Both the position numbers and the translations under genes were made by a program. The notes under the pieces were generated by a model that was not told where the DNA came from, did no database searches, and was given only the letters and a program-made list of their open reading frames with translations. From Bacteroidaceae bacterium (GTDB lineage: Bacteria > Bacteroidota > Bacteroidia > Bacteroidales > Bacteroidaceae), in NCBI GenBank assembly GCA_017617575.1, contig JAFZVY010000108.1:1-50193 (forward strand): 50,193 bases of DNA, in the 5' to 3' direction. Below, one piece after another: positions 22,881-46,981 of this stretch (position 1 is the first letter of the stretch; every line of letters starts with the position of its first letter).

Positions 22881-22895
22881 TCTTATTTGTAAATC

Positions 22896-24692: not shown

Positions 24693-24711
24693 CACTTAAA
24701 TAAACTGAAAA

Positions 24712-26109
24712 ATGAAAATTCTCAATAAATTATCAAACTGTTTGATGGTCGCTACTACATTGTCAGCATTCTGCATAACTGGATGTACAGACCAGCCAGA
24801 CAAGTATGAGTCAACTGATGGTACGCCACGAATTGACTATATAAGACGACTTAGTTCGGAGATAAAAACAAAACAGGACAATGCCGAGACTGTTTACACA
24901 AATGGTCAGTTGGTAACAAGTGCAGCTCCTAACGATGCTATTTGTTTTGTCGGAGACAATCTTCGTTCCATTATGAAGATTTTTTTCAACGACAAGGAGG
25001 CAGCCATTAACACAAGCCTTGTTACAGACAACACTCTTATTATAAACGTTCCGGGTGAAGTCCCTAACTATGTTACTGATAAGATTTATCTGATTACAAC
25101 AGGAAACGATACTTTAACCTATGACTTTTCTGTTGAAATCTCAGCTCCTGTCATTAACTCCATGTCATGCGAGTATGCACATATTGGCGATGAAATTGAG
25201 CTCAAGGGACAGTATATAATTGACGACCCAGGGGTTCCTCTTACAGTTGAGTTTACTGGTGCAGGTGGTTCAAAGATTCCTGCCGTTATTAAGTCTATTG
25301 CTGACGACTATACTTCACTCACTTGTGTTATTCCAGAGGGAGCAGAAGAAGGACCTATCACAGTGACTTCAATCTATGGAGCATCAGAGACTGTATTCCA
25401 CTATCTCGATACTCGTGGTATGATGTTCGAGTTTGATGGTAAGACAGGTCTTGGCAACCATGGTTGGCACGATATGATTATTACTGCCGATGAGTATTCA
25501 CTCAATGATGGCGACCATTATCTCCAACTTGGAGACGGAAGTGAAAAGGATGGACTTCTAAATGAAAACGGGGATTGGAATGATAAGCTATTCTCATTCG
25601 AATATTGGTGTGGTTCATGGGATGACCCTCAGAACTTTACTTCTGGCAATGGTATTGCACTCTACAACCTTGTTGATTTCTCTAATGCAGCAAATATGAC
25701 ACTTAAGTTCGAGATGCAGATTCCAAAGGAAAACCCTTGGTGCTCTGCAGCCATGCAGCTTATCTTTGCAGGAACAAATGCTGTTACAATCAGTGGTAAT
25801 GGTGGATACCCTAAAGCCAACAATACGTTCTTCAAGACTAAGGCTGAGAAAGGCTTAGACATTCCTCGCGCACTCTATCGCCCATGGACAGAAACTGGTT
25901 CATACGATACAGGTGGCAAGTGGATAACAGTATCTATCCCTATCGCTTCATCATTCACATTCAACTTCGATGGTTCTGGTCTTGATTATAACCTCAAGAC
26001 TGAGGACTTCGCAAGCTTCACAATGTTTGTGATTGGTGGTGGTGTGAAGGGTACGGCATGTAATCCTATCATCCGTATAGACAATATCCGTGTGATACCT
26101 AATAAATAA
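24712..26109 (+). CDS. Surface glycan-binding protein (SGBP-type lipoprotein)
   Basis: A 465-aa lipoprotein with lipobox ITGC, in the position of SusE/SGBP genes. About residues 35-230 form two IPT/TIG-like Ig folds, the second with VINSMSCEYAHIGDEIELKG. The C-terminal half, about 235-460, resembles the carbohydrate-binding domain of SGBP-B proteins, with FDGKTGLGNHGWHDMII and Trp-rich segments FEYWCGSWDDPQNF and NPWCSAAM that may form the binding platform. It lies 19 nt after susD. It would capture polysaccharide at the surface for GH26/GH5 attack. Confidence 0.82.
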   Translation: MKILNKLSNCLMVATTLSAFCITGCTDQPDKYESTDGTPRIDYIRRLSSEIKTKQDNAETVYTNGQLVTSAAPNDAICFVGDNLRSIMKIFFNDKEAAINTSLVTDNTLIINVPGEVPNYVTDKIYLITTGNDTLTYDFSVEISAPVINSMSCEYAHIGDEIELKGQYIIDDPGVPLTVEFTGAGGSKIPAVIKSIADDYTSLTCVIPEGAEEGPITVTSIYGASETVFHYLDTRGMMFEFDGKTGLGNHGWHDMIITADEYSLNDGDHYLQLGDGSEKDGLLNENGDWNDKLFSFEYWCGSWDDPQNFTSGNGIALYNLVDFSNAANMTLKFEMQIPKENPWCSAAMQLIFAGTNAVTISGNGGYPKANNTFFKTKAEKGLDIPRALYRPWTETGSYDTGGKWITVSIPIASSFTFNFDGSGLDYNLKTEDFASFTMFVIGGGVKGTACNPIIRIDNIRVIPNK

Positions 26110-26115
26110 ATTAAG

Positions 26116-26355
26116 TTTCGGAAGTTTAGTAGGAGTTAACTTCGTGGAGTTAAAAAGGAGTTATATAGGAAGTTAAAAAGACGATTGTCTGTACGTCAAA
26201 TTTCAAATCTATCATCTATGCGCTCCAGACGTATAAATTTGACATTATAAACTTGAAATACGCGATTAGTCTATCGTCTCTTTAACTCCATTTTAACTTC
26301 CCTATAACTACTCTATAACTACATAGAAGTAAAGCTTAAACAAAACTTCCGAGAC
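26116..26355. repeat. Inverted-arm element (copy B) inside the glycan locus
   Basis: The left arm begins CGGAAGTTTAGTAGGAGTTA (from 26119) and contains GGAAGTTAAAAAGACGATTG. The right arm carries the inverted motifs ATCGTCTCTTTAACTCC and TTAACTTCCCTATAAC and ends AAAACTTCCG. The outer 8 bp of the two arms are perfect inverted repeats. A 25-nt block (26159-26183) is identical to 4314-4338 of copy A. The element separates the SGBP gene from the IPT lipoprotein gene. Confidence 0.7.
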
Positions 26356-26374
26356 ACAAAAATAAGAAAATAAC

Positions 26375-28753
26375 ATGAAAAAGTATTTCAATATATTCGC
26401 AGTGTTGATGGCCACCCTTATCGGTGTTTCATTGACTTCCTGCAACGACGATGACCTCAAGACTGGTCAGTACGGAGGCGGTGTACAGTTGAATGTATTC
26501 GGTCCAAGTCCAGTAATGCGTGGAGGTACACTTCGTTTCATTGGTAGTAACCTCGACCAGATTAGCCAAGTGCTTATCCCTGGAGTGCCTGCCATCACTA
26601 ATATTGAGGTTGTAAAAGGTGGCGTGCCAAGCGAGATTAGGGTAACCGTGCCAAAGGATGGTTCTGAACCTGGTATCGTTACACTCGTCACTAAGACTGA
26701 CCAAGTGATAAAGACTCTCACTCCACTTGCTTATAGCGAGCCAATCGAGATTGATGAGTTCATCCCAGCTTCTGCAATGCCGGGTGAGGAAATAACTATC
26801 AAGGGTGACTACCTCAACCTCATTCACATGATTGAGTTTGCTGATGGTGTGTTTGTGTCAGAGAAGGCTTTCAAGTCACATGACCGCTACCACATCACAG
26901 TTGTTGTCCCAGAGGAAGCTAAGACAGGCAAGCTCGGTCTCTATGACCTTGATATCTCGGACAGCGAGAGTGCTTCAGCTGATGTGTCTTACAATATCAT
27001 CAAGACAGAAGAGGCTCTCAACGTAGGTACTCCTACAATCACAAGCCTTGCTTCTCCACGTACAGCAAAGGCAGAGGCAAACGAGACTGTCGTTGCAAAG
27101 GCTGGTGAGGAAATAACTGTCAATGGTGAGCACTTCAACCTTATCGCTTCAATCAAGGTTGGCGAAGGTGAAAGCGCGGTAGAGTTTAACGACTTTACAG
27201 TTGTAGAAGACAAGAATGCTATCACATTCAAACTCCCAGAAAATGCTCCATCTGGTGACATCGTTCTCGTATGTCGTTCAACAGTTGAGATTCCTGTTGG
27301 TAAGCTTACTACAGTCAAGCCTTCTGAACTCAAGGTTAATCCTACTCCTGTAAAGAATGGTACTGAACTTACTATCACAGGTAAGGACCTTGACCTTGTT
27401 AAGTCTGTAACATTCCCTAATGCTGATGCCGTAGAGGTAACAGCTGAGGAAACTAAGATTGTTGTCAAGGTTCCTGAGACAGCAACAGAAGGTGACATCG
27501 CTCTTAACATGGCTAATGGTGAGTCTGTAACAGTTGCTTACACTCTCGTTAAGCCTGAGTTTAAGGCATACTCAACTGCAAAAGCTTCTGCAGGTGGTGT
27601 ACTTTCTATCGCAGGTACAGACTTTGACCTCGTTAAGAGCGTTACATTCACAGGTGCAGAGCCTGTTGAAGTAGAAGCTGCTGCAACTCTTATTAACGTA
27701 AATGTTCCTATGGAGGCTAAGACAGGTGCTGTTACACTCAACCTCAAGAACGGTACTACAGTTGAGATAGCTTCTATTGATATCGTTGAGGCTGTGTTCT
27801 GTTACGCTAAGTCTCTCCCATCAGAGGAGGAAGAGATTCACGCAGGTCAGACTCTCACACTCACAGTTGCTAATCCAGACGTATTCCAGTATGTAGAGGT
27901 AAATGGCACAAAGGTTCAGCACATCCTTCAGGGCGACCGACTCATCATTGCTATTCCTGATAATGCTAAGGCTGGTGCGCAGTTCAAGCTCGTTTCTTCA
28001 AATGGTGAAATATCATACATCATCAATGTCATTCCTAACACAGAGATTAAGACTGTCGTATGGACAGGACTTGAAGAATTCAGCAACTGGTCATCAAGCA
28101 TCAACATTAGTAACGACACCTTCAACTGGGGTGGACTTACTCCGGGTGCAACGCTCAAGGCAAATGTTGTTGTTGACCAGAAGTCTGACGGCTGGGCTTG
28201 TCTTGCTGTCGTAGGTTCAAACTGGGCAGAAGAAAGCAAGAACCAGATTAATCTTCCAAATGGTGAACAGACAATAGAGATATTGCTCGATGATGCTTAT
28301 ATCCAGAACATCAAGAATTGGGGCGGTCTCTTGTTTACAGGTCACAATGTAGTCCTTAGCCGTCTTGAGGTTATTGAGCACATCTCACTCGAAGAGACAA
28401 TCTGGGAAGGAAATCATAGTGCAGGTGGATGGGCAAATGGATTCACAGCGCTCTCATGGGGTGGATATGACTGGTCAACAGTCAAGGCAGGAAAGACTCT
28501 TGTTGTTCACTTCACAGTTGACCCTGCCAAGGAATATGGTTGCCAGATTCGCTTCGGTAATGGTAGCTGGACTGCACTTCCTGGTACTAAGCAGTTGGAA
28601 GGTGCTGATGGTGAAGGTAACATTGCCATGGCAGATGATGCTAAGGAGTATCGTCTCACTCTTACACAGGAGATGATTGACGAGATGGTTGCCAACGGCG
28701 GACTTGTAATCTGTGGTGCTTGGTTCAACCTCACAAAGGTCGGTATTGAGTAA
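26375..28753 (+). CDS. Multi-IPT-domain surface lipoprotein with tandem C-terminal beta-sandwich modules
   Basis: A 792-aa lipoprotein (lipobox LTSC followed by NDDD, an acidic surface signal). About six Ig-like IPT/TIG repeats run from about 35 to 560. Recurrent motifs are GEEITIKGDYLNLIHMIEF, GEEITVNGEHFNLIASIKV, GTELTITGKDLDLVKSVTF and GGVLSIAGTDFDLVKSVTF. Two related modules follow (about 565-670 and 675-792), each with a Trp-Gly core (FNWGGLTPGATLKANVVVD and YDWSTVKAGKTLVVHFTVD). They are probably carbohydrate-binding. I read it as a long surface stalk presenting two glycan-binding heads. A terminator follows. Confidence 0.75.
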   Translation: MKKYFNIFAVLMATLIGVSLTSCNDDDLKTGQYGGGVQLNVFGPSPVMRGGTLRFIGSNLDQISQVLIPGVPAITNIEVVKGGVPSEIRVTVPKDGSEPGIVTLVTKTDQVIKTLTPLAYSEPIEIDEFIPASAMPGEEITIKGDYLNLIHMIEFADGVFVSEKAFKSHDRYHITVVVPEEAKTGKLGLYDLDISDSESASADVSYNIIKTEEALNVGTPTITSLASPRTAKAEANETVVAKAGEEITVNGEHFNLIASIKVGEGESAVEFNDFTVVEDKNAITFKLPENAPSGDIVLVCRSTVEIPVGKLTTVKPSELKVNPTPVKNGTELTITGKDLDLVKSVTFPNADAVEVTAEETKIVVKVPETATEGDIALNMANGESVTVAYTLVKPEFKAYSTAKASAGGVLSIAGTDFDLVKSVTFTGAEPVEVEAAATLINVNVPMEAKTGAVTLNLKNGTTVEIASIDIVEAVFCYAKSLPSEEEEIHAGQTLTLTVANPDVFQYVEVNGTKVQHILQGDRLIIAIPDNAKAGAQFKLVSSNGEISYIINVIPNTEIKTVVWTGLEEFSNWSSSINISNDTFNWGGLTPGATLKANVVVDQKSDGWACLAVVGSNWAEESKNQINLPNGEQTIEILLDDAYIQNIKNWGGLLFTGHNVVLSRLEVIEHISLEETIWEGNHSAGGWANGFTALSWGGYDWSTVKAGKTLVVHFTVDPAKEYGCQIRFGNGSWTALPGTKQLEGADGEGNIAMADDAKEYRLTLTQEMIDEMVANGGLVICGAWFNLTKVGIE

Positions 28754-28781
28754 AGAATCTTTTTAAACAAATATGAAACAT

Positions 28782-28816
28782 AAGGGGAGTGCATTGTTGC
28801 GCTCCCCTTTGTTTTT
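28782..28816 (+). terminator. Intrinsic terminator after the IPT lipoprotein gene
   Basis: AAGGGGAG (28782-28789) pairs with CTCCCCTT (28802-28809), extended by GCA/TGC, and is followed by TGTTTTT. It splits the glycan locus into two transcription units. Confidence 0.85.
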
Positions 28817-28824
28817 AGACATAA

Positions 28825-28959
28825 ACCATTGCCGAGGTAAAACAAGATGCCAAAAGGTATGACCATGACAAGTTCATGGAGAAAGTGGAATATATGAAAC
28901 AGAATGTATTGCCAAAGTATAAAGTTGAGACAATGCTACTGACTATGGAGGATATGTAA
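28825..28959 (+). pseudogene. C-terminal gene remnant inside the glycan locus
   Basis: A stop-to-stop frame of 44 codons reads TIAEVKQDAKRYDHDKFMEK and continues VEYMKQNVLPKYKVETMLLT MEDM to a stop. It has no start near its left end and lies right after a terminator, so it looks like the tail of a lost gene. The Lys/Glu-rich helical style is reminiscent of nuclease-like transposase C-termini, but this is a guess. Confidence 0.4.
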
Positions 28960-28998
28960 TGGTTCTCCTTTAGGCATAGCCTCATCTCATTGCCTAAT

Positions 28999-29029
28999 AA
29001 TGATGGTACTGCAAAAAAGTACCATCATT
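28999..29029. promoter_or_regulatory. Perfect 12-bp palindrome upstream of the GH26 promoter
   Basis: AATGATGGTACT (28999-29010) and its exact complement (29018-29029) flank a 7-nt loop. It lies 38 nt upstream of the -7 element of the GH26 gene. It lacks a plus-strand T-run, so an operator or processing hairpin is more likely than a terminator. Confidence 0.5.
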
Positions 29030-29066
29030 TGCAAAAAAATAAAGATGGAAAAGCAAATAAATATAG

Positions 29067-29074
29067 TATATTTG
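29067..29074 (+). promoter_or_regulatory. Candidate -7 element for GH26-GH5
   Basis: TATATTTG matches TAnnTTTG, 26 nt before the GH26 start codon. This gives a short leader. Confidence 0.6.
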
Positions 29075-29100
29075 CACCATTCAAATAAAAAATCACAATC

Positions 29101-30276
29101 ATGAAAGCATTGAAAAGTATATCAACACTATTATTGTCAGGTATGTTGACATCGCTCATCTCCTGCAATGACAGTACAAAGGCTTCCGACCCGATAGCTG
29201 ACAGCGGAAGGACGGAACGCACGGAAAACCTTTTGACAAATATGAGAACTTTGTCAAATACGGGTTATATGTTTGGTCATCATGACGACACAGTATATGG
29301 CATAGGATGGGTGGGCGACAGCGCAAACTCAGACGTCAAGAGTGTGTGTAACGACTATCCTGCCGTGATAGGATTTGACATAGCAAATATAGAGAATGGC
29401 GATTCCGTGAACATAGACGGTGTGCCATTCGACAAGATACGCGAAGAGGTTATCAACCAGTTCAACCGTGGAAGTGTTGTTACCATCAGTTGGCATGCAA
29501 ACAATCCGAACACCAACTGTAACGCTTGGGTGAAGGATGCAAGTAAACCCACATCGGCAGAAAAGAACACGGTGGCTTCTATCCTCAAGGGTGGAGACAA
29601 GCATGATAAGTTTGTGGCATGGATGAAGAACGTGTCCTCTTTCCTCAACTCCCTTGAAACACCTTACGGAGTACGAGTGCCAGTCATCTTCCGACCTTGG
29701 CACGAGAACACAGGTTCTTGGTTCTGGTGGGGCGAGGCGGAATGCAGCCCAGAGCAGTTCAAGGAACTATGGACTATGACCATAGACGAGTTGAAGGAGA
29801 ACGATGTGGTTAACGCCTTATACGCATATTCACCAGGTGGAGAAGATACGCCTTCGGCAAGTCACTATATGGAGAGATACCCGGGTGACGAATATGTAGA
29901 TGTCCTCGGACTTGACATCTACTGCATGGCAGAAAGTTCAGACGACACACTTTCTATAGCAGCATTTGCCGAGAACCTTGACAAGAATCTTGATGTGGTA
30001 TGTAAACTTGGACAGGAACACAATAAGGTTGTTGCACTTACGGAAACAGGCTTTGAGGGAATAAAGACAGCAAACTGGTGGACTGCAACCCTTGCGCCAG
30101 TACTCGACAAGCACAATATTGCATACGCATACGTTTGGCGTAATGCTCACGACAAAGTGAACCACTACTATGCTCCTTATCCGGGACAGAAGAGTGCTTC
30201 CGACTTCGTGACATTCTACAATCTGCCAAAGACATTATTTTCTCATGACTTAAACGGAATGTATCTGAAGAACTGA
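29101..30276 (+). CDS. GH26 beta-mannanase (surface lipoprotein)
   Basis: A 391-aa lipoprotein with lipobox ISC (Cys22) then NDS. The GH26 TIM barrel fills the rest. The catalytic acid/base is E202 in FRPWHENTGSWFWWG and the nucleophile is E315 in ALTETGFEG, both in canonical contexts. GHHDDTVYG near residue 59 and SWHANNP (130-136) are typical substrate-site segments. The enzyme cleaves beta-1,4-mannosyl bonds at the cell surface or in the periplasm. It has its own promoter downstream of the terminator at 28782 and is followed by the GH5 gene after a 91-nt gap containing a dispersed repeat. Confidence 0.93.
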   Translation: MKALKSISTLLLSGMLTSLISCNDSTKASDPIADSGRTERTENLLTNMRTLSNTGYMFGHHDDTVYGIGWVGDSANSDVKSVCNDYPAVIGFDIANIENGDSVNIDGVPFDKIREEVINQFNRGSVVTISWHANNPNTNCNAWVKDASKPTSAEKNTVASILKGGDKHDKFVAWMKNVSSFLNSLETPYGVRVPVIFRPWHENTGSWFWWGEAECSPEQFKELWTMTIDELKENDVVNALYAYSPGGEDTPSASHYMERYPGDEYVDVLGLDIYCMAESSDDTLSIAAFAENLDKNLDVVCKLGQEHNKVVALTETGFEGIKTANWWTATLAPVLDKHNIAYAYVWRNAHDKVNHYYAPYPGQKSASDFVTFYNLPKTLFSHDLNGMYLKN

Positions 30277-30285
30277 TTCTTTCTG

Positions 30286-30330
30286 TTCTTCGTCCGCGCC
30301 TCTGGTGCGATAACTTTTCCGCAAGAACTA
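30286..30330. repeat. Dispersed CTTCGTCCGCGCC repeat, copy 1
   Basis: CTTCGTCCGCGCCTCTGGTG followed by CGATAAC. Copies occur at 35021-35060, 49753-49780 and, inverted, at 49856-49887. It sits between the GH26 and GH5 genes. Confidence 0.75.
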
Positions 30331-30367
30331 AAAAACATAAAAACTCAATAACTTAAAAACTTACAAT

Positions 30368-31897
30368 ATGAACAGACTAACCAGAAACCTTTTGAGCATA
30401 TTTGCTCTTATATCAAGCTTATTCATCGCTACATCATGTGGCGACGATGCAACAGAGGACGTGCCTACAGGTAAGAGGACAACAATCGTGACTCGCTCAA
30501 GCAGTATCAAGGAGGGAGCAGAGGTTGATGCCGCCACTGTCACAAAGATTACCATAAGCTACAACACTACCGTAACTCAGGCAGCTGATGCCAACATCAC
30601 GCTTAACGGAGTGAAGGTTGTAGGACAGAAGGGCACAACCACAGCAATGGACATGGATATCATGGTAACTCTTGAGGAAGGCAAGGAATATACCCTTATC
30701 ATCCCGGAAGGCTCTGTGGTTTCCACCACTGATGCCAACCAGACAGCACCAGAGTTTGTGCTCCACTTCTCTACTAAGAAGAGCCTTGAGGACTCTCTTC
30801 CTGACAATGAGGCTATGGCTGTGACACGTATGCTCGGCTTCGGCTGGAACCTTGGCAATCACTTTGACTCACATAGCAATGGAAACAAATGCAATTGGTG
30901 GGATAATGTAAACACCACGGAGGCTCTCTACCAGAATCTTGCACAGGCTGGTGTAAAGACCGTCCGTATCCCTGCCACATGGGGACCTTGGCAGGGCGAA
31001 GCTCCTGACTATAAGATAGAGGACTCTTTCATGGCAACAATAAAGGAGAACGTACTCTGGGCAAAGGCTGCTGGACTCAACGTAATCCTTAACAGCCACC
31101 ATGATGAATACTGGCAGAATGCCTATTCTGCATCAACCAATACTGAGACAAACGAGGCATTAAAGGCACGTATCGTTGCCACATGGAAACAGATAGCAGA
31201 GGAGTTCAAGAACGAGGGTGACTACCTCATCCTCGAAGCCTTCAATGAGTTGAACAACAACTGGGCTGTACCTACCAATGGTGAGCTAAAGATTATGAAC
31301 GAGTGGAATCAACTTGTGGTAAACACCATTCGTGCCACTGGTGGCAATAACGCAACACGCTGGATTTCCGTTCCAAGTTATCAAGCAAGCCCAACATACG
31401 CTCTCGATTCTCGCTTCACCATCCCTACGGATGATGCAAACAAACTTATCGTGGCAGTACATTGCTACGACCCATACAATTTCACACTCAACAAAAGCCT
31501 TGCTGAGACATGGGGACACAGCGCAGGCAACGCCAACGACGAGAAGAGCATAACAACCCTTCTCAACAAACTCAAGGAAACGTTTATTGACAAGAACATC
31601 CCTTGCTACCTTGGTGAGATTGGTTGCTCAATTCATGAGACAGAGTTAGGCAATAAATGCCGTGACTACTACCTTGAATACTTCTGTCGTGCTGCCCACT
31701 ATGCAGGACTTGCCGTTACACTCTGGGACAACCACAGCCCTGGTGCAGGAGCAGAGCATCACAATTATTTCTCACATAAGGATGGCTCATGGATGAACGA
31801 TAGCGAGAGCCTCATCAAGACAATGATTAAGGCCACTACAAGCACAGACCCAACATACACACTTGAGTCTATCTATAATCGTGCACCTAAGAAGTAA
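30368..31897 (+). CDS. GH5 endo-beta-glycanase with N-terminal Ig-like domain (surface lipoprotein)
   Basis: A 509-aa lipoprotein (lipobox ATSC, Cys24, then GDD). Residues about 35-137 form a Big_5-like Ig domain, typical of spacer domains. The GH5 barrel spans about 150-500, with the acid/base E294 in LEAFNEL and the nucleophile E417 in YLGEIGC. RIPATWGPW, VILNSHHDEYW and HCYDPYNFTL complete the active-site strands. The pattern GFGWNLGN...HYYDPY-like suggests subfamily GH5_4, whose members cleave glucomannan, xyloglucan or mixed-linkage glucan. With GH26 beside it, glucomannan or galactoglucomannan is the best guess. Confidence 0.9.
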   Translation: MNRLTRNLLSIFALISSLFIATSCGDDATEDVPTGKRTTIVTRSSSIKEGAEVDAATVTKITISYNTTVTQAADANITLNGVKVVGQKGTTTAMDMDIMVTLEEGKEYTLIIPEGSVVSTTDANQTAPEFVLHFSTKKSLEDSLPDNEAMAVTRMLGFGWNLGNHFDSHSNGNKCNWWDNVNTTEALYQNLAQAGVKTVRIPATWGPWQGEAPDYKIEDSFMATIKENVLWAKAAGLNVILNSHHDEYWQNAYSASTNTETNEALKARIVATWKQIAEEFKNEGDYLILEAFNELNNNWAVPTNGELKIMNEWNQLVVNTIRATGGNNATRWISVPSYQASPTYALDSRFTIPTDDANKLIVAVHCYDPYNFTLNKSLAETWGHSAGNANDEKSITTLLNKLKETFIDKNIPCYLGEIGCSIHETELGNKCRDYYLEYFCRAAHYAGLAVTLWDNHSPGAGAEHHNYFSHKDGSWMNDSESLIKTMIKATTSTDPTYTLESIYNRAPKK

Positions 31898-36633: not shown

Positions 36634-37767
36634 ATGGACAAGATAATCATCAGCAACTTTCAGTTTACTGCAATCGTCATCATGTTTATGTTGACGATGT
36701 CACTTGTGCTCACCCTCTTCAGACGTGTACGATTGCAGAACGTACTTAACCGTTCACGATGGTTGCTGGCACTCGGAACGGGAACATTGTTCCTTCAGTT
36801 CCTGTTGCAATATACTCTTCACTTGCGTGACATGGGCAACGTACAGGCACTCATGCTCAACCTTCTCCTCATTTCTCCGTCGGCATGGTTCATGAGCCTT
36901 GCCCTACTCTACTTGCAGAAATGCGGTAAACTAAAGACGATAGAATGGTGCGAAGGAGGAGTGGTATGGCTTATCATCATCATCATGCTCGTCATAGCCA
37001 CTACCGATGACGGCGAACCGTTCTTCTGCGACACCCCAGCCGTGCGAATGGCAGAGAGGATAAGCGCCATCATCTTCTTCCTGTCACGTTGCCACTACAC
37101 CTATATACAATATACCCAGCTACGTCGCACACAACGCTCATTGGACAACTACTACGACTACGACACGAGTGACAAACTGCGATGGATGTCGCTATCCATA
37201 ATTTGGATGGTCATAATGTCCGTAACCGTGCCAATAGCCATCATCTGTCCAAACCGTTTCCTTTTCCTCTACGGCTTCTTTGCCATTGCAGGCCTGTGCT
37301 ATTTCGTAATGTCATTCAGGGATTACGCCATAAGTCGCCATGCCATTCAGGTTATGGAGGCACAACAGAATGCCGAGAACGCAGGTATGGATGACGAGGA
37401 AGAGTTCTGTCCGGAGATCCTCACGGAGGAAGAGAAGCAAAGGACGGAACGTGCCATAAGCGAATGGATAGACAGAGGCGGTCACCTACGAGCAGGTGTC
37501 ACCATGTCAACCGTAGCATCAGAACTGCGAATATCACAAATAACCCTCCGCAACTGGTTCCACGAGACCGGCTACAAGTCGTACCCAGAATGGATTCAGT
37601 CCATACGCGTCAACCACGCCAAGAAACTCATGAACGAACATCCAAACTACACCATTGAGACCATAGCCGAGCAATGTGGCTTCAGTTCGCGCAATTACTT
37701 CCAGACCATCTTCAAGAAACACGAAGGCATGACGCCTATACAATACTTCTCAAGGATAAATAGATAA
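36634..37767 (+). CDS. Membrane-anchored AraC-type transcriptional regulator
   Basis: A 377-aa protein. The N-terminal half (about 10-240) holds six or seven TM helices, including FTAIVIMFMLTMSLVLTLF and VVWLIIIIMLVIA. After an acidic linker (DDEEEFCPEILTEEEK), residues about 280-375 form an AraC DNA-binding domain with VTMSTVASELRISQITLRNW and YTIETIAEQCGFSSRNYFQT. Such one-component membrane regulators sense envelope or membrane-embedded signals. It is divergent from an orphan membrane protein and lies 360 nt upstream of the S8-S9/SusCD locus, so it could regulate either or both. Confidence 0.82.
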   Translation: MDKIIISNFQFTAIVIMFMLTMSLVLTLFRRVRLQNVLNRSRWLLALGTGTLFLQFLLQYTLHLRDMGNVQALMLNLLLISPSAWFMSLALLYLQKCGKLKTIEWCEGGVVWLIIIIMLVIATTDDGEPFFCDTPAVRMAERISAIIFFLSRCHYTYIQYTQLRRTQRSLDNYYDYDTSDKLRWMSLSIIWMVIMSVTVPIAIICPNRFLFLYGFFAIAGLCYFVMSFRDYAISRHAIQVMEAQQNAENAGMDDEEEFCPEILTEEEKQRTERAISEWIDRGGHLRAGVTMSTVASELRISQITLRNWFHETGYKSYPEWIQSIRVNHAKKLMNEHPNYTIETIAEQCGFSSRNYFQTIFKKHEGMTPIQYFSRINR

Positions 37768-38127: not shown

Positions 38128-41100
38128 ATGAATTATCGCTTTAGTTCCACATTCATCGGTGTATGTTTGCTTATGGGACAAGGTGCAATGGCACAGAAAA
38201 TTCAGGACAATTGGTGGTTTGGTCAGAGAAATGATAGTGTGGCTGGCATCAATGTCAAGGGTATGAAAGAGTTTATTGGTAGCAAGAATCTTAAACCAGC
38301 TACCATTCCCGTTTATTCAGTAATAGATGGCGGATTCGACATGACACATCCTTACATCAAGGATGTCGTTCGTGATACGCTTGGTTGGAACTTCCTCGGC
38401 AACGCCAAGGAAAGCTTTGACCGTGCAGGTACTGAAGCCTATCGCCAGTTCAAGCGTCTTCACCCTAAATATAAGAATGTGAAGGATGCAAAGGCTGTGA
38501 CTGACACCGCAGAATACAAATACTACCTTCAGATGGCTAACGAGATTCATATCCAGAGCTATCTGATGATGGCATGGAATCATGAATATACATACAAGGC
38601 GGTTCACACCGTCGATTCTCTCATGAAGCTTTGCTACGGCAACAAGAAGACGCACCTAAGCGACTTCATGACGATTGACGTGGCAGACACTACTGGTTTG
38701 ATGGGCGACATTGAAACCACATACTCATATTGTGTTCGCTACACTCCTGAGACATCGTGGGACAGTATCGTGTCTGTCATCAAGGCTGACTACGAACTTA
38801 GCCATAAGCGTGTGGCAAGCCTTGACAAGGACGACGACCCACACCACAAGCTGGGTAATGACTTCGACGATTTCCGCAATCTTCACTACGGCAATGCCGA
38901 CATCACAAGTGACGCCTACCATGGAACAATGGTAAGCGGACTTATTGCCACTATGCTCCGAAACGCTTCACTTCATGGCGTACAGATTCCTGTTCGTGCC
39001 ATACCAGACGGTGACGAGTACGACAGGGACGTTGTTGCTGCAATACGATGGGCTGTGGATAATGGCGCAAAGGTTGTGAACATGAGCTTTGGCAAGAAGC
39101 ACTCGCCTCATGCTGACAAGGTGAAGGAGGCAATACAATACGCTCTCGACCATGACGTGCTCCTCATCCATGCGGCAGGAAACGACGGCAGGGACAATGA
39201 CAAGTTCCCAATCTACCCAACTCCTTTCCGCACAGGCGAGAAGGAACGCTGGGACAACATGGTTGTTGTGGCAGCAAGTGACATAGACGGTAAACTTGCA
39301 GGCATAAGCTGCTATGGTAAGAACTCCGTTGACATCATGGCACCTGGCATGGCAATAACAAGCTGTAAGCCTGGTGGAACGTATGACACTCAGCGAGGCA
39401 CATCACTTAGTGCTCCTATCGTATCAGGTCTTGCAGTGGTCATCCGCAGCTATTTCCCAGACCTTACAGCCAAGGAAGTACGTGACATCCTTGTTTCCAC
39501 GGCTAACAACAACATAGTGGATGCACTCGCAGCATTTGAGAAAGCATGGAGTATGAGTCGCTATGGTGATGGCATTTTCTATCAGGCTGAGAAGATGACA
39601 AGCGATAGCATATATAATCTAATGACCAACAAATCAATGTCCGTAACATTTCTTCCAGATGGTAGATACGTTCACTTCACTCGTGAGGATAACGGACAGG
39701 AAACACCCACACATTACCTCATCGACACAAAGCAAGGCAAGGAGATACGATTGTTTTCCGACCCAAAATATCGTTATCTGAGTGACATGCACATCACACG
39801 TGATGGAAAGGCTTTTGCCTTCCGCGCCAAGGGTAAGCCTATGCAGTACAACTGGGCAACAAAGTTAATGGCGGAAAGCACCGACACACTCAAGGCAGAA
39901 CATCATCAGTTCGGTCCAAGAGGTGACTACCGTCGCAACTATAGTGCAGACAGTCTCTATTACGTCACAGCCATAGGTCATGACATGTGGCTGTATGACA
40001 CACAGAAAGGTGACAGCGTGCGCCTTACTGACAATGGTAAATATCTTAGCTCATATGCAACAGGTGGTAACAGTACATCTGACAACGTGAAGCCGGGAGA
40101 ACGCGGTTCTGCCCTCGGCTCATGGATAGGCAACACTCATCGCTATATCTGTATTCGTGAGGATAAAAGCAATGTAGGCAAGATGACCATTGTGAACAAC
40201 CTTGCCAATCCACGTCCAAAAGCTGTGACTTATCCATTCCCAATGCCCGGCGACGACAAGGTCGGTGTGTTCCACAGCTACCTGCTTGATGCAGACAAGC
40301 GTGAGATGAAAGAGATAAACCTTACTGAACGTGAGGATGACATGATAGAGATCCCACGCTTCACTCCTCTTGCACAATCTGGCAACTATGTGTATGCCCT
40401 TCAGAAGAGTCGTTATCAGGACACCATAACCTTGTGGCGCATTGATGGCGAACACTGTGAGATAAAGCCTATCATTCGTGAGACAGTCTCACCACACCTC
40501 TGCGAACAATTATTCAGTTTCCATCCTCTTAACAAAGGACGCGACATCCTCTGGTGGAGTGAACGCACTGGTCGTGGACGCTACTATCTATATGATGGCG
40601 AGGGTAATCTCAAGAATGCCATCACTCCAGACAATATGATAGCAGGACAAATTGTGCGCATCGACACTCTCGGTCGCTCACTCATACTTGAAGGCTACGG
40701 AAGAGAAAAACACGATTGCAATCCTGCATACAAATACTACTACCGTTGTTCATTCAATGGTAAGCAGACTGTCTGCCTCACACCAAAGGCAGGTCACCAT
40801 AGTGCAACATTCAACAAGGATTATACCCTTGTCTTTGACAACTGTAGCAGTATTGACAAAGCACCAGTATATTCCATCTACAACACCAAGGGCAAGGAAA
40901 TTGCAGTCATTGGCAAGGCTGACGACAGCAAGATGAAAGCATCTGGACGTAACCTTCCTCAGTCTGTCAAGGTGATGTCCGCCGACGGTAAGACTCCAAT
41001 ATGGGGAGTTGTCTATACACCTTGGTGGATGAAGGCAGACGATAAGCTTCCAGTCATTACCAATCCTTATCCGGGTCCTCACACAGACCTCGTGCCATTG

Positions 41101-41730
41101 GGCTATGAGATAAACGACAACGGTAACCAGACACTTGCCGACCTCGGTTTCGTAGTGATATGCTTTAGTTACCGTGGCACTTGTCCTTGGCGTGGACGCG
41201 ACTTCTACACATACGGTTATCAGAACCTTCGCGACTATGCCATTGATGATGACATGGCTGCCATACGCCAGTTGCCTGCCATCGTACCACAGGCAGACAC
41301 CACACGAGTAGGAATCTACGGACATAGCGGTGGTGGATTCATGACTGTAGCTGCCATGCTCCAGCATCCAGACTTCTACAAGGTGGGAGTAGCAGCAAGC
41401 GGCAATCATGACAACAATATTTATACTAAGTGGTGGGGCGAGACCTTCCACGGCCGTGGAAGAATTCCAACGAACATCGAGATAGCACAGAACCTCAATG
41501 GAAGGCTATTGCTCATCCATGGTGACATGGACAACAATGTTCACCCAGCCAACACCATTCGTATGGCAAACGCCCTTATCAAGCAGGGCAAGACATTCGA
41601 CATGCTCATCATTCCCGGACAGGACCACGGACTTGGAGACAAGTACTACATGAACCGCATCCGCTACTACATGATGGAGCATCTTTCCAATCACAAATTT
41701 AATCACATTGACATACTCAATCACAAATGA
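38128..41730 (+). CDS. Exported S8 subtilisin - S9 (DPP-IV/prolyl oligopeptidase) fusion protease
   Basis: A 1200-aa protein with a signal peptide ending AMAQ (residue 23). N-terminal subtilase, about 55-465: Asp67 (SVIDGGFD), His265 (DAYHGTMVSG), oxyanion Asn352 (HAAGNDG) and Ser426 (RGTSLSAPIVSG). About 200 residues separate Asp67 and His265, a large insertion. A beta-propeller-like region, about 485-930, has repeated blade motifs (FLPDGRYVHFTRED, ITRDGKAFAFRAKG, LWWSERTGRGRYYLYDGEG). The C-terminal alpha/beta hydrolase, about 940-1190, has Ser1067 (GHSGGGFMTVAA), Asp1135 (HGDMDNNVHP) and His1167 (GQDHGLG). Both triads look intact, so one chain should combine endoproteolysis with exo- or oligopeptidase activity. 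The stop overlaps the SusC start (ATGA). Either parent family alone is common in Bacteroidota; the fusion is what stands out. Confidence 0.9.
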   Translation: MNYRFSSTFIGVCLLMGQGAMAQKIQDNWWFGQRNDSVAGINVKGMKEFIGSKNLKPATIPVYSVIDGGFDMTHPYIKDVVRDTLGWNFLGNAKESFDRAGTEAYRQFKRLHPKYKNVKDAKAVTDTAEYKYYLQMANEIHIQSYLMMAWNHEYTYKAVHTVDSLMKLCYGNKKTHLSDFMTIDVADTTGLMGDIETTYSYCVRYTPETSWDSIVSVIKADYELSHKRVASLDKDDDPHHKLGNDFDDFRNLHYGNADITSDAYHGTMVSGLIATMLRNASLHGVQIPVRAIPDGDEYDRDVVAAIRWAVDNGAKVVNMSFGKKHSPHADKVKEAIQYALDHDVLLIHAAGNDGRDNDKFPIYPTPFRTGEKERWDNMVVVAASDIDGKLAGISCYGKNSVDIMAPGMAITSCKPGGTYDTQRGTSLSAPIVSGLAVVIRSYFPDLTAKEVRDILVSTANNNIVDALAAFEKAWSMSRYGDGIFYQAEKMTSDSIYNLMTNKSMSVTFLPDGRYVHFTREDNGQETPTHYLIDTKQGKEIRLFSDPKYRYLSDMHITRDGKAFAFRAKGKPMQYNWATKLMAESTDTLKAEHHQFGPRGDYRRNYSADSLYYVTAIGHDMWLYDTQKGDSVRLTDNGKYLSSYATGGNSTSDNVKPGERGSALGSWIGNTHRYICIREDKSNVGKMTIVNNLANPRPKAVTYPFPMPGDDKVGVFHSYLLDADKREMKEINLTEREDDMIEIPRFTPLAQSGNYVYALQKSRYQDTITLWRIDGEHCEIKPIIRETVSPHLCEQLFSFHPLNKGRDILWWSERTGRGRYYLYDGEGNLKNAITPDNMIAGQIVRIDTLGRSLILEGYGREKHDCNPAYKYYYRCSFNGKQTVCLTPKAGHHSATFNKDYTLVFDNCSSIDKAPVYSIYNTKGKEIAVIGKADDSKMKASGRNLPQSVKVMSADGKTPIWGVVYTPWWMKADDKLPVITNPYPGPHTDLVPLGYEINDNGNQTLADLGFVVICFSYRGTCPWRGRDFYTYGYQNLRDYAIDDDMAAIRQLPAIVPQADTTRVGIYGHSGGGFMTVAAMLQHPDFYKVGVAASGNHDNNIYTKWWGETFHGRGRIPTNIEIAQNLNGRLLLIHGDMDNNVHPANTIRMANALIKQGKTFDMLIIPGQDHGLGDKYYMNRIRYYMMEHLSNHKFNHIDILNHK

Positions 41731-44700
41731 AACAGCTTCTACTAATTATCCTGATGTGCCTTACATCAGTCACCCTTGTCAATGCCCAGACTATTGACTT
41801 CTCAGGTCATGTTGTGGATGACCACTCAAGTCCATTGCCCGGAGCTACCATCAAGGATGCAGACGGCAAAGCCATCGGTGTTACTGACAACAACGGTAAG
41901 TTCAGCGTGAAGGTAAAGCAAGGCTCACCTGTCACATTCGTGTTCCTTGGCTTCAAGGACGAGGTCGTTCGTGCCGTTAAGAAATCCACACGTGTCATCA
42001 TGAGTGAGGACTCAAAGATGATGAGCCAGGTGGTAGTCAATGGCTATCAACAGTCTGACATACGCAAGACAACAGGTAGTGTAGGTATCCTTTCGGCTGA
42101 AGACCTCAAGGATCAGCCTCTTGCCAATGTTGACCAGTTAATGCAAGGAAAGCTCTCTGGTGTCAACGTGTCTTCAGTAAATGGTCGTCCGGGCGCAAGT
42201 GCAAAGATACGCATACGAGGCATAAGCAGTATCACGGGTAACAACGAACCTCTTTGGGTCGTAGATGGTGTACCTATCCAGAAAGAGATTCCTGCCATGG
42301 GTAGCACATACGTACGAAGTGGTGACTTTAGCACTCTATATGCAAATGGAGTGGCTGGCATTGCCCCTCAGAACATAGAATCCATCACCGTGCTCAAGGA
42401 TGCTGCTGCCGCAGCCATATATGGTAGTCAGGCACAGGCTGGCGTCATTGTCATCACGACAAAGAAAGGTAAGGAGGGAAGAATGCGCATTGACTACAAT
42501 GCGAGCCTTTCAGTCCAGACTTCGCCAACCCGCAGCGACAACCTTATGAACAGTGCCGAGAAGATAGCTTACGAGCGTGGCATCTGGAACGAGTTCTGTG
42601 CTGATGCCTATGCTAATGGAACATACTACCCACGCATCGGTATCGTAGGACAGGTTCTCAGCGGATACGGTCAGTATGCAGGTATGACTACAGAAGAACA
42701 GGAGGCTTACCTCAGTTCCTTGTCAAGCCAGTCAACAAACTGGTTCAATGAGTTGTTCCGCAACAGCCTCTCCACAGGTCACAACATCAGCATTAGTGGT
42801 GGAGGTGACAAGACACAATATTATGTAGGAGCAGGAATAAACACAAACAATGGTATCGTAAAGCGCACTTCAAGCGACAGCTACAACTTCATGATGAAGT
42901 TGAGCGGCCAGCCCCTCAGTCGTGTGTCATACAATCTTTCCATAGACTTCAACTACCTAAAAAGCACAGGAAGCAGCTATGGCTTCGACATATTCAAATA
43001 CGCCTACTTCGCCAATCCATACGAGAAGGTGTACAATGAAGATGGTACATACGCATCAGACAACACATACTTCTCCATGCCACAGGCCAATGGAAGCGTT
43101 TCGTCGCTCATGCCTTCAAACGGATTTAACGTCATGCGAGAAGTCAATGAGACAAGCAACACAGCCACAAGTGCCACTACAAGCCTACGCGCCGACGTAA
43201 GCTGGAACGTGACAGACGACTTCCGTCTCTTCGGTCTTGCATCATTCACCAGCTCATCCGACGTCAGCGAGAACATCGTTGGACAGGACACCTATGCAGC
43301 TTGGCTCGACCGTCCATTCGACACATACGTCTATAACTCAAAGCGCATATATGGCAACTACACCAACGCCCAGACTGCTAACCGCAACTGGCTCTTGCGT
43401 GCACAGGCTAACTATAGCCACCTATTCAACGGCCTTCATCGTGTAAGTGCCGTAGCAGGTACGGAGGTTCGCCGTAGCATGGCAGATGCCGTGTTCCAGA
43501 AGCAATATGGATACGACCCTGTCACGGGTAATCACAATACTCCACTCCTTGTCATCCCATCCACTCAGAGCGAATACACACAGGCAAACATGGAGACGTA
43601 CAGGAGCATCCTTAATTCATGCGCTGGACAGAACAAGTCAGAGAATGCCTTTGCCTCGTTCTATGGTGCGGCTGATTATATCTACAATAACAAATACGTG
43701 TTTAATGCCACGGTACGAAGTGACGGTAGCAACAACTTCGGTTCTGCCGAGCAGTTCAACCTCACATGGAGTACTGGTGTGGCATGGAACATCGACGAGG
43801 AGTCATGGATGAAGTCCCTCCGTCCATACCTCTCACGTGCCACAGTCCGCATATCAACAGGTGTCACAGGAGGTGTGAACAAGAGCGTCTATCCTGTACT
43901 CATCATGAACTACAGCACGTCCTATCGCGAGTCGGACACAGAGGCAATGCGACTTGGATACATCAATAATGCTCCTAATGAGCACTTGAGATGGGAACGT
44001 ACTCACGACCTCAATGGAAGCATTGACCTCGGATTCATGGATGACCGTTACAACCTCAACGTCAGTCTCTACCGCCGAAAGGGCACAGACCTCGTCACTC
44101 CAGTGCGCATCGTTAGTACCACAGGATTCACAACCCAGAGCTTCAACACAAGCGAACAGTTGAACCAAGGTATAGAGATAGGCATAGGTGCCGGCATCAT
44201 CAGGACCAAGGAGTGGCGATGGAACATGAATGCCAACATAGCATACAACTATAACAAGCTCACCAAGTACCAGACACCTACGGGTAGCGTGCTTGGCGAC
44301 ATATATGTGAACTATCCACTCGGCAAGCTCTTCACGGGAATATGCAATGGCATCGACCCAGAGACAGGTCTCTACACATTCCAGTTGCGCAGCGATGCCG
44401 TCATCGAGACTGCTGCCGACAAGCGCAACATGGACAACTACATGTTCTACGTCGGTACGAGCAATGCCCCATGGACAGGTGGAATGAGCACAAGCGTAAG
44501 TTGGAAAAACTTCACACTCAGCATTGCCGGTAGCTATCAGCTGAAGGCAATACTCAGCAACAGCATCTCTCCACAGACATACTACAGCCAGTTGTCAAAG
44601 TCCATGACCAACACCATCCCTACCACAAAGAACGACCTCTACACGGCACACCTCAACGTGGTACGAGACATGGCAGATCGATGGACTCCTACCAACACGG

Positions 44701-45014
44701 ATGCACAGTACCCACGTCTTATTGATGCCTACGGTAAGGCTCTCAATCTTACCACGGAGAGTGTTACAAGTAGCTTCATCACCGAATGCGTCTATTATGA
44801 GAAGTGCAGCTTCTTCAAGCTTAACAGCCTCACGTTGTCCTACTCCATGCCAGACGACTTGGTACGCCATACGCCATTCACCAACGTAGGCTTCAGTTTC
44901 ACGGCTAACAACCTGTTCTATCTGACCAATTACACAGGACTTAATCCAGAGACTCCGGGAGCTGTTTATCCTATCTCACGTAGCTTCACATTCGGAATAA
45001 ACGTAGGGCTATAG
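41727..45014 (+). CDS. SusC/RagA-family TonB-linked transporter of the protease locus
   Basis: A 1095-aa outer membrane transporter. The signal peptide ends VNAQ (21). A CarboxypepD_reg-like domain (about 23-95), a plug with KIRIRGISSITGNNEPLWVV followed by DGVPI, and a barrel ending SFTFGINVGL follow. The start overlaps the protease stop by 4 nt, so the two are translationally coupled. By analogy with RagA of Porphyromonas gingivalis, which imports oligopeptides, it probably takes up peptides released by the S8-S9 enzyme. That cargo is inference from context. Confidence 0.92.
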   Translation: MKQLLLIILMCLTSVTLVNAQTIDFSGHVVDDHSSPLPGATIKDADGKAIGVTDNNGKFSVKVKQGSPVTFVFLGFKDEVVRAVKKSTRVIMSEDSKMMSQVVVNGYQQSDIRKTTGSVGILSAEDLKDQPLANVDQLMQGKLSGVNVSSVNGRPGASAKIRIRGISSITGNNEPLWVVDGVPIQKEIPAMGSTYVRSGDFSTLYANGVAGIAPQNIESITVLKDAAAAAIYGSQAQAGVIVITTKKGKEGRMRIDYNASLSVQTSPTRSDNLMNSAEKIAYERGIWNEFCADAYANGTYYPRIGIVGQVLSGYGQYAGMTTEEQEAYLSSLSSQSTNWFNELFRNSLSTGHNISISGGGDKTQYYVGAGINTNNGIVKRTSSDSYNFMMKLSGQPLSRVSYNLSIDFNYLKSTGSSYGFDIFKYAYFANPYEKVYNEDGTYASDNTYFSMPQANGSVSSLMPSNGFNVMREVNETSNTATSATTSLRADVSWNVTDDFRLFGLASFTSSSDVSENIVGQDTYAAWLDRPFDTYVYNSKRIYGNYTNAQTANRNWLLRAQANYSHLFNGLHRVSAVAGTEVRRSMADAVFQKQYGYDPVTGNHNTPLLVIPSTQSEYTQANMETYRSILNSCAGQNKSENAFASFYGAADYIYNNKYVFNATVRSDGSNNFGSAEQFNLTWSTGVAWNIDEESWMKSLRPYLSRATVRISTGVTGGVNKSVYPVLIMNYSTSYRESDTEAMRLGYINNAPNEHLRWERTHDLNGSIDLGFMDDRYNLNVSLYRRKGTDLVTPVRIVSTTGFTTQSFNTSEQLNQGIEIGIGAGIIRTKEWRWNMNANIAYNYNKLTKYQTPTGSVLGDIYVNYPLGKLFTGICNGIDPETGLYTFQLRSDAVIETAADKRNMDNYMFYVGTSNAPWTGGMSTSVSWKNFTLSIAGSYQLKAILSNSISPQTYYSQLSKSMTNTIPTTKNDLYTAHLNVVRDMADRWTPTNTDAQYPRLIDAYGKALNLTTESVTSSFITECVYYEKCSFFKLNSLTLSYSMPDDLVRHTPFTNVGFSFTANNLFYLTNYTGLNPETPGAVYPISRSFTFGINVGL

Positions 45015-45285
45015 AAGACCCACCCTAACCCTCCCTATAGGGAGGGGAGCGGACCTTCCCCCATCCCCTTCCTTTCAGGACGGGGAGTAGTTACTCCGTT
45101 CGCTTGCTGCGAGTTAAGACTCAAAGAATGGCAAGATGACTTCCTTTCAGTCAGTGAGAATAGTTGGTAATTTAGCTCCCGACAGGGAGCGGGCTCTAAA
45201 AAAAATACGTGCTAAGCATTTTTAATTTTTAACTTTTAATTTTTAATTCCCGAAAGGATGGGAGGGGGCTTTAACTTAAAACGAA
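45015..45285. repeat. C/G-rich repeat insertion between susC and susD
   Basis: No gene. It begins with the palindromic CCCTCCCTATAGGGAGGGG (45032-45050). A C-rich run (CTTCCCCCATCCCC), a GCTCCC/GGGAGC hairpin near 45175-45195 and TTTTTAATTTTTAACTTTTA follow. A related C/G-rich block is at 48981-49020. SusC and SusD genes are normally spaced by tens of bases, so this looks like an insertion. Confidence 0.6.
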
Positions 45286-46656
45286 ATGAAAAGAATAACA
45301 TACATACTTGCAATTACAGGAGTGCTGCTTTCATCATGCAACGACTTCCTGGACATCAAGCCTTACGGCAAGACCGTGCCAAAGACACGAGAGGAGTTCA
45401 AGGCTCTCATCGACAACACGCTCGAAGGCATTGACAAGGGCAACACGGGAACAGAGTACGTCATGGGTAGCATATCCACGGCTTCCGAGATGGAGGAGTG
45501 TGCCGACAATATGGAGACAAACATCCAGACAACGGACTACCTCACCAACTATGTGGGCGACATACTCTCAAACCGACAGTCCGTGTACCAGAACCTCTAT
45601 GAGGTGATACGTACTGCCAACATCACCCTCGATGGCTATAAGCCTGCAACCTACGAACGTCAGGACAGTGACATCATCGGTACCTGCTACGCACTCCGAG
45701 GCGTATGCTACTACCAGCTGTTGAAGCAGTTCTGCGTACCAGCCATGACTGCGGACAACGCCCTCGGTGTACCTCTCGTAACAGAGTTCAACCTTGAGGC
45801 TACGCCATCCCGTAGCACATGGGATGCAACCTTCCGTCAGGCAGAGACAGACATGAAGACAGCCATGTCCTACCATATTGCAGACAAGATGTACCGATTC
45901 AACGATGACGTGATGTGTGGCTATCTTGCACGCCTCTACCACTGGTCAGGCCATTGGCAGGAAGCCTACGACTACGCCATGAAGGTGGTGGAACGTCACC
46001 CACTCCTCGACAGCACTGAGTACCGCAAGATGCAGGATGCCACATACGGATTGGTAGGTAACCGTATTGCCATGGGTAGCCTTCTCTTCAACTCCAACTT
46101 GAGTCCAAGCTCCCGATTCGAGACTCTCAAGGGACGTCCACTCAGCAAGCGTTTCCTCGACCTCTTCAATGAGGGTGACCGTGATGTACGCTATGCAAGC
46201 ATCGTTGCCAAGAAGCGCAGGAACAACAAGATGCCTCGTGCCACAATGCGTTCAGCCGAGATGTACCTTATCGCCATGGAGTGTCAGGCTCACCTTGGCA
46301 ATGAGACTGAGGCACAGGACATGCTCATGACACTTCGCAAGCTTCGCACGCCTACGTTCCCATACATCCGTCTTGCAAGCATCCCTAAGACGGAATACAT
46401 ACAGACGGATGCCACAGGCAAGCCCCTCACAAAGTTGATGTACAACATACTTCGTGAGCGTCGCAAAGAGATGTACATGGAGAACGGTGACCGCTTCTGG
46501 GAACTCAAGCGCAATGGATGCCCAGAGTTCTGGGTAGCAGTAAAGGGTAAGAAATACTGGACACGTTCCTATATGTACACCTTCCCTATTCCTGTCAATG
46601 ACATCTATGTCAATCCATCACTACAACAGAACGAGGGATACGGAGATGTTGAATAA
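45286..46656 (+). CDS. SusD/RagB-family surface lipoprotein of the protease locus
   Basis: A 456-aa lipoprotein (lipobox LLSSC then NDFLDIKPYGKTVP, the usual SusD opening). TPR-like helices include ACY-type CYALRGVCYYQLLKQFC and DDVMCGYLARLYHWSGHW. The C-terminal NILRERRKEMYMENGDRFWE and LKR matches the conserved SusD end motif. It is shorter than the 598-aa SusD of the glycan locus, as RagB-type peptide-binding partners often are. It is the likely lid of the transporter encoded at 41727. Confidence 0.9.
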   Translation: MKRITYILAITGVLLSSCNDFLDIKPYGKTVPKTREEFKALIDNTLEGIDKGNTGTEYVMGSISTASEMEECADNMETNIQTTDYLTNYVGDILSNRQSVYQNLYEVIRTANITLDGYKPATYERQDSDIIGTCYALRGVCYYQLLKQFCVPAMTADNALGVPLVTEFNLEATPSRSTWDATFRQAETDMKTAMSYHIADKMYRFNDDVMCGYLARLYHWSGHWQEAYDYAMKVVERHPLLDSTEYRKMQDATYGLVGNRIAMGSLLFNSNLSPSSRFETLKGRPLSKRFLDLFNEGDRDVRYASIVAKKRRNNKMPRATMRSAEMYLIAMECQAHLGNETEAQDMLMTLRKLRTPTFPYIRLASIPKTEYIQTDATGKPLTKLMYNILRERRKEMYMENGDRFWELKRNGCPEFWVAVKGKKYWTRSYMYTFPIPVNDIYVNPSLQQNEGYGDVE

Positions 46657-46981
46657 TAATGAGCAATGAGTAATTAGAAATTAGTAATAGCCGTTCGGAA
46701 CTGAGCGTAAATGTTATTACTCACTACTAATTACTAATTATGTATTTACTAAGTAACAAGCAAAAAATAATATGGAATATTTTAAGCATAAATTATCACG
46801 AATTTGCCACAAATTATCATTAATTATGATTTCGATTATATCGAAATCTATTTGTGATAATTAATTCGTTACGCAAAATATTTATGATAATTCGTGGTTA
46901 ATTCATGGTAATTCGTGTAAAAACAAAAAAAGTCATATTTTGTACCAAGTTATTTTTTAATCATTACTAATTAAATAAAAA
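46657..46981. repeat. AT-rich palindromic intergenic region
   Basis: No gene. TAATTAGAAATTAGTAATA and ATTACTCACTACTAATTACT form one inverted pair (46672-46740). ATTATCACGAATT and AATTCGTGGTTAATTCATGG form another (46791-46915). ATTCGTGTAA-type pieces recur near 49400-49470. No promoter could be chosen with confidence. Confidence 0.5.

Follow-up and report, generated by a model that had tools for sequence, protein, structure and literature searches.

A lineage-specific fusion of S8 and S9 serine peptidase domains encoded directly upstream of a SusC/SusD pair in a Bacteroidaceae bacterium

A single open reading frame from a Bacteroidaceae bacterium encodes two serine peptidase domains of different families, a subtilase (S8) and an S9 hydrolase, and the genes that follow it specify a SusC/SusD-type pair. 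Does this chain represent a new type of proteolytic machine or a variant of an arrangement already present in its relatives, and what might it do beside an uptake system? We addressed these questions within the window, the whole 50,193-nucleotide stretch of contig JAFZVY010000108.1 that was analyzed, and by comparison with genomes of the same genus, family, order and phylum. The reading that we favor, though at little better than even confidence, is that a lineage-specific fusion arose within an S8-S9-SusC-SusD cluster and that its product digests, in the periplasm, peptides imported by SusC and SusD.

Two peptidase domains on one chain

The gene and its parts are listed below in window coordinates.

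38128..41730, forward strand: fused S8-S9 peptidase gene, 1200 aa, reading frame open from its ATG
38128..38193, forward strand: probable type I signal peptide, residues 1-22, with the cleavage site placed by eye ahead of Gln23; no lipobox
38317..39513, forward strand: subtilase (S8) domain, residues 64-462, from Pfam PF00082, phmmer and conservation
38329..38919, forward strand: Asp67-His265 insertion, residues 68-264, largely helical in models of low to moderate confidence
39514..39597, forward strand: junction of the two halves, residues ~463-490, with no remnant of a second signal peptide
39949..40860, forward strand: DPPIV-type beta-propeller, residues 608-911, from Pfam PF00930, without the DWxYEEE motif
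41128..41655, forward strand: S9 alpha/beta-hydrolase domain, residues 1001-1176, from Pfam PF00326 and, by sequence, from DPP4 chains

Three Pfam profiles match the chain, all above their curated cut-offs: Peptidase_S8 at residues 64-462 (E 9.6e-39; 133.8 bits against a cut-off of 21.8), DPPIV_N at 608-911 (E 4.9e-22) and Peptidase_S9 at 1001-1176 (E 2.6e-36). The initial annotation had described two complete triads of different fold joined by a propeller-like region. All seven residues that it named are where it placed them: Asp67 (VIDGG), His265 (YHGT), the oxyanion Asn352 (AAGN) and Ser426 (GTSLSAP) in the S8 half, and Ser1067 (GHSGGG), Asp1135 (GDMDNN) and His1167 (GQDHG) in the S9 half; the DPPIV_N match places the propeller between the two triads. 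In alignments of relatives, two rows of which (L074 and L116) appear to be one genome, the Asp, His, Asn and Ser columns are kept in 22 of 25 S8 rows and the Ser-Asp-His triad in all 31 S9 rows. The first half therefore has the profile, triad and oxyanion Asn of the subtilase family, kept in its relatives, and the second has the propeller and S9 profiles together with the triad of the DPPIV-type S9 family. By sequence, the nearest solved structures are subtilisins for the S8 half, with phmmer matches mostly confined to residues ~254-461, and bacterial DPP4-type enzymes for the S9 half. The joining of the two on one 1200-aa chain is a real gene fusion.

The three exceptional S8 rows are apparent pseudoenzymes of 538-574 aa encoded downstream of other SusC/SusD genes (L071, 6936-8552; L072, 6583-8307; L073, 6893-8599). 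All triad residues are lost in them, the four columns reading S/V/E/N, G/V/E/G and G/T/D/G, respectively.

AlphaFold predictions for the full-length protein (from five sequences; mean pLDDT 44.5, pTM 0.33) and for the S8 half (from two; mean pLDDT 45.6, pTM 0.46) were too poor for active-site geometry. Foldseek searches with the S8 model (pLDDT 45.6) returned subtilisins as best matches (E ~2e-6, with TM of only 0.26/0.44), which does no more than agree with the assignment of this half from sequence.

The insertion of about 200 residues within the S8 domain had been singled out as unusual. It is indeed present, with 198 residues separating Asp67 from His265, but it typifies an S8 family that is widespread in Bacteroidota, and the description as unusual was rejected. 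The same spacing is 198-222 residues in the 22 rows with intact triads, except for 156 in G777, and 206-222 in the wider family, in all 19 members that could be read (26 loci were tried, seven of which had no frame passing the motif filter). Members of this family are single genes of ~530-600 aa that share with the window protein both the triad and the 200-residue insertion; they mostly stand alone, no S9 match being found in flanks of up to 1.5 kb at 25 of 25 loci (L081-L105). Models of the insertion place helices at residues 128-170, 191/192-202 and 211-232/234, with block pLDDT of 51-83 for residues 151-230 and lower values elsewhere.

The S9 half resembles bacterial DPP IV and prolyl tripeptidyl peptidase (5olj, 2ecf and 2z3w) in combining a propeller, an S9 domain and a Ser-Asp-His triad, and the Tyr of its PYPGP segment aligns with a DPP4 Tyr that we take to be the oxyanion Tyr. 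It differs from these enzymes in carrying GHSGGG rather than GWSYGG, in being fused to an S8 domain and in lacking the DWxYEEE anchor. In DPP4 this double-Glu motif anchors the substrate N-terminus; it is present in 5olj, while the window protein contains no EE pair anywhere. Among the 31 S9 rows, WxYEEE occurs in one, a paralogue from the window genome (L003) that served as a positive control. Because the motif is missing, membership of DPP4 was rejected, and dipeptidyl activity of this half should not be presumed: the domain is best read as an S9 enzyme by family, for which we claim no dipeptidyl peptidase specificity. The S9 clade linked to SusC/SusD genes shares the motifs GHSGG(G/A) and GN(H/Y)DNN...WGE, as do some unlinked relatives.

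Relatives, rarity and history of the fusion

The same four components, in the same order, occur in 13 other loci (L036, L063-L070, L074/L116, L118, L119 and L121) in which S8 (509-542 aa) and S9 (755-809 aa) are adjacent genes. Whereas the window encodes one chain, these loci encode two separate exported peptidases, 33-38% (S8) and 37-53% (S9) identical to the window protein, each beginning with its own hydrophobic signal-like segment. Gaps between the two genes range from -82 to +69 nt, reckoned from longest-ORF starts, with a 4-base overlap in five loci (L064, L065, L066, L067 and L068), and susC then susD lie downstream in 13 of 13. Neighborhoods were read for the best S8 and S9 matches, so these counts describe close relatives and not a random sample of Bacteroidales; L074 (Prevotellaceae bacterium SUG1803) and L116 (G779) have equal protein lengths and were counted once. 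Since these 13 loci keep the two peptidase genes next to each other and ahead of susC and susD, cooperation of the two halves is likely. To that extent the initial view of the chain is supported, but "self-contained" does not describe a gene that directly precedes susC and susD and whose two enzymes are separate proteins in 13 loci.

Wide flanks were read at 27 loci of the S9 clade, one of them the window's, and in 24 susC adjoins the S9 gene or lies two genes away; it is not beside the S9 gene in L039, L040 and L041, the first of which ends with its contig 942 bases past the gene. Four loci carry S9 with SusC and SusD and no adjoining S8 (L037, L038, L075 and L076; the last two are Butyricimonas records with two ORFs between S9 and susC). 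S8 is thus dispensable there, which counts against the import-and-digestion model.

To gauge how rare the fused form is, we searched overlapping genome samples with the S8 half. In the family, the S8 half matched 25 of 301 genomes at E ≤ 1e-10, and a single frame encoding both halves was demonstrated for two of them, the window genome and G215; the G215 protein is 59% identical to that of the window in S8 and 58% in S9. Within the genus of G215, 7 of 139 genomes matched at E ≤ 1e-20, six with fused genes (G215, G717, G734, G828, G796 and G777) and one with split genes (G779), and in the window's own genus the only match among 45 genomes was the window genome itself. Matches were found in 70 of 393 genomes of the order (E ≤ 1e-20) and 133 of 395 of the phylum (E ≤ 1e-40). 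Among the matches listed for these two samples, judged mostly by frame length and with the window excepted, frames were either too short for both halves or long with a weak match. Ten of the weak matches in long frames (804-3174 aa), taken across the family, order and phylum (G563, G092, G371, G588, G537, G413, G501, G011, G328 and G1024), were examined, and none had an S9 match within the 6.9-12.5 kb read. Viral contigs scanned with the S9 half yielded no relative. Together, these searches place both halves in one chain in seven genomes, the window's and six of one other genus, and in separate genes at 13 loci: the fusion is a rare, lineage-specific variant of an existing S8-S9-SusC-SusD cluster and not a new type of machine. 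Among open-licence papers, judged by titles and opening abstract lines, we found no description of an S8-S9 fusion or of this operon; one candidate, PMC13039773, deals with a protease carrying an M1 metalloprotease annotation and was set aside as irrelevant.

We built maximum-likelihood trees for each half, with 21 rows for S8 and 27 for S9, after removing L074 (the L116 genome), the three pseudoenzymes (L071-L073) and the paralogues from the window genome (L002-L004). For the eight genomes that make up the fused clade, the two trees are compatible with each other, as expected for a jointly inherited unit. Fused proteins form two groups, one of the window and G215 and the other of G717, G734, G777, G828 and G796, with the split G779 as sister of the second; two changes between fused and split states are needed, which fits two fusion events or a single fusion followed by a split. 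The next branch out in the S9 tree is the S9 of G068, a protein without S8 beside it.

This history bears on a neutral explanation, in which the linker is cut after export or the halves work independently, so that the fusion has no mechanistic meaning. We consider this possible but clearly the less probable account. It draws on the split form being the commoner among the loci read (13 against seven), on the two changes implied by G779, and on linkers that differ between the fused groups, as flexible tethers do (G717 has a Ser/Pro-rich stretch, G734 a shorter one). Against it, the fused state has been kept in both groups despite identities to the window protein of only 36-59% in S8 and 50-58% in S9.

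The SusC/SusD pair and its surroundings

Four further features flank the peptidase gene.

36634..37767, forward strand: AraC-type regulator (PF12833)
41727..45014, forward strand: SusC/RagA-type TonB-dependent transporter (TIGR04056, E 9.6e-192; Plug)
45286..46656, forward strand: SusD-type protein (PF14322, PF07980)
46828..46848, forward strand: terminator-like hairpin after susD, weak

The ATG of susC overlaps the peptidase stop codon by 4 bases, there is no other gene-sized ORF between peptidase, susC and susD in the window, and the adjacent SusC and SusD genes mark a SusCD-type uptake locus. Compared with solved structures, the window SusC matches 8ypu/8ypt, 8aa4 and 5t3r better than RagA (6sli; E 7.4e-50) or BT_2264 (5fq6; E 9.2e-38); 8aa4 and 5t3r are presumably glycan-type SusC proteins. 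This ranking does not favor a peptide transporter over a glycan-type one and so counts against the import model. Precedents for peptide uptake exist among SusCD-type complexes, namely RagAB and BT_2261-2264, described in PMC11817032 and PMC7782687, the former describing uptake of gingipain-cleaved peptides by RagAB of Porphyromonas gingivalis. These systems share a SusC/SusD-type pair with the window and provide the model for peptide import, but the resemblance of the window SusC to them is a general one.

Both SusC and SusD (41727-46656) match PDB 8ypt/8ypu best, and the substrate of that complex could clarify the window locus; no literature naming these entries was found among open-licence papers.

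The upstream AraC-type gene is a possible regulator. Beside the annotated related loci its sole match at a threshold of E 1e-4 lies next to L005, a distant S9 paralogue in the same genome, and because it was not seen beside relatives it was not counted as part of the system. Searches for promoter patterns gave nothing usable. The hairpin after susD may, weakly, mark the operon end; terminator-like sites are not enriched (five found, against a mean of 8.8 in shuffles).

Cellular location and proposed role

A hydrophobic 12-mer at residues 5-16 and a start that, by eye, ends in AMA before Gln make a signal peptide probable. The description of the protein as exported therefore stands for passage through the inner membrane; beyond that membrane it finds no support. 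Gln after the cut fits the Q-rule for Bacteroidetes (PMC10653852). A hydrophobic 12-mer lies within the first 75 residues of all 33 proteins compared (seven fused, 13 separate S8 and 13 separate S9), and none of the 33 has a lipobox in that stretch. The lack of a lipobox points away from an extracellular processor and towards an enzyme that acts in the periplasm on what SusCD brings in; with location judged from motifs alone, the fused enzyme probably stays in that compartment.

We infer the periplasmic location, the peptide substrate, the division of labor and the benefit of tethering in the favored model, which would run as follows. Polypeptide or oligopeptide fragments probably enter through SusC and SusD. 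In the periplasm they would meet the fused enzyme, which one signal peptide exports and which probably stays there. Its S8 domain would cut the fragments internally, and its propeller-gated S9 domain would trim or cut the short products to a size suited to inner-membrane transporters. Fusion would set a 1:1 ratio of the two activities and hold both active sites close together. One feature speaks against a periplasmic enzyme: only ~40 residues separate the signal peptide from the S8 domain. The usual inhibitor propeptide of subtilases is longer, so this stretch is too short to be one, and a free periplasmic subtilase would have to be kept under control.

Natural fusions hint at which proteins cooperate, and this one points to S8, S9 and SusCD as one likely functional unit; it leads us to expect a locus dedicated to scavenging protein or peptides, the counterpart of the polysaccharide utilisation locus. 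Two linked questions thereby become testable: which of the SusCD pairs take up peptides, and by which enzymes the digestion is completed.

A more elaborate version would have the enzyme act as a tethered two-stage peptidase that channels its substrate while docked to the periplasmic side of the SusC importer. Here the helical insertion of the S8 domain would act as its gate in place of a removable propeptide, and the products of that domain would pass directly to a propeller-gated S9 oligopeptidase of new specificity, free of the DPP4 anchor. We regard this version as unlikely.

Digestion at the cell surface, with the chain turning extracellular proteins into peptides before SusCD import, comes nearest to the initial view of a protein-to-peptide processor and strikes us as a little more doubtful again. 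An S8 endopeptidase would suit the first cut, and PMC11817032 discusses peptidases possibly acting outside together with RagAB. The absence of a lipobox from all 33 proteins argues against it, however, as does the C-terminus, which stops 24 residues past the S9 Pfam match and leaves no extra sorting domain.

Periplasmic digestion of imported peptides can also be set against a specialized task, in which the enzyme would mature or process one specific polypeptide and have no general nutritional role. S8 domains do serve peptide maturation, the S8 half matches mycosin and PatA models below their cut-offs, and the locus is sparse, being found in 1 of 45 genomes of the genus. No conserved precursor gene was noticed among relatives' ORFs of at least 120 aa, a weak point against this improbable alternative. 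Least credible by far, and rejected, is an assembly or sequencing artefact joining two genes: the window genome is in draft form, 86% complete and broken into 162 contigs, but fused homologues in six other genomes contradict it, and the junction holds no second signal peptide, its top 12-mer scoring 0.89 (Kyte-Doolittle) against at least 2.0 at the 13 separate S9 starts.

Two observations concern the rest of the window. The susC-susD gap (45015-45285) measures 271 bases, as against -11 to +65 in cluster relatives (L037 has an apparent -157, counted from a long-ORF start), and contains the palindrome CCTCCCTATAGGGAGGG, a dispersed genomic repeat with 28 forward and 28 reverse matches at up to two mismatches (each palindromic site counts on both strands) and none for the reversed control. 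Further upstream, at 19626-31897, lies an ordinary-looking glycan utilisation locus with SusC, SusD, a xyloglucan-binding SGBP_B domain, a TIG protein, GH26 and GH5.
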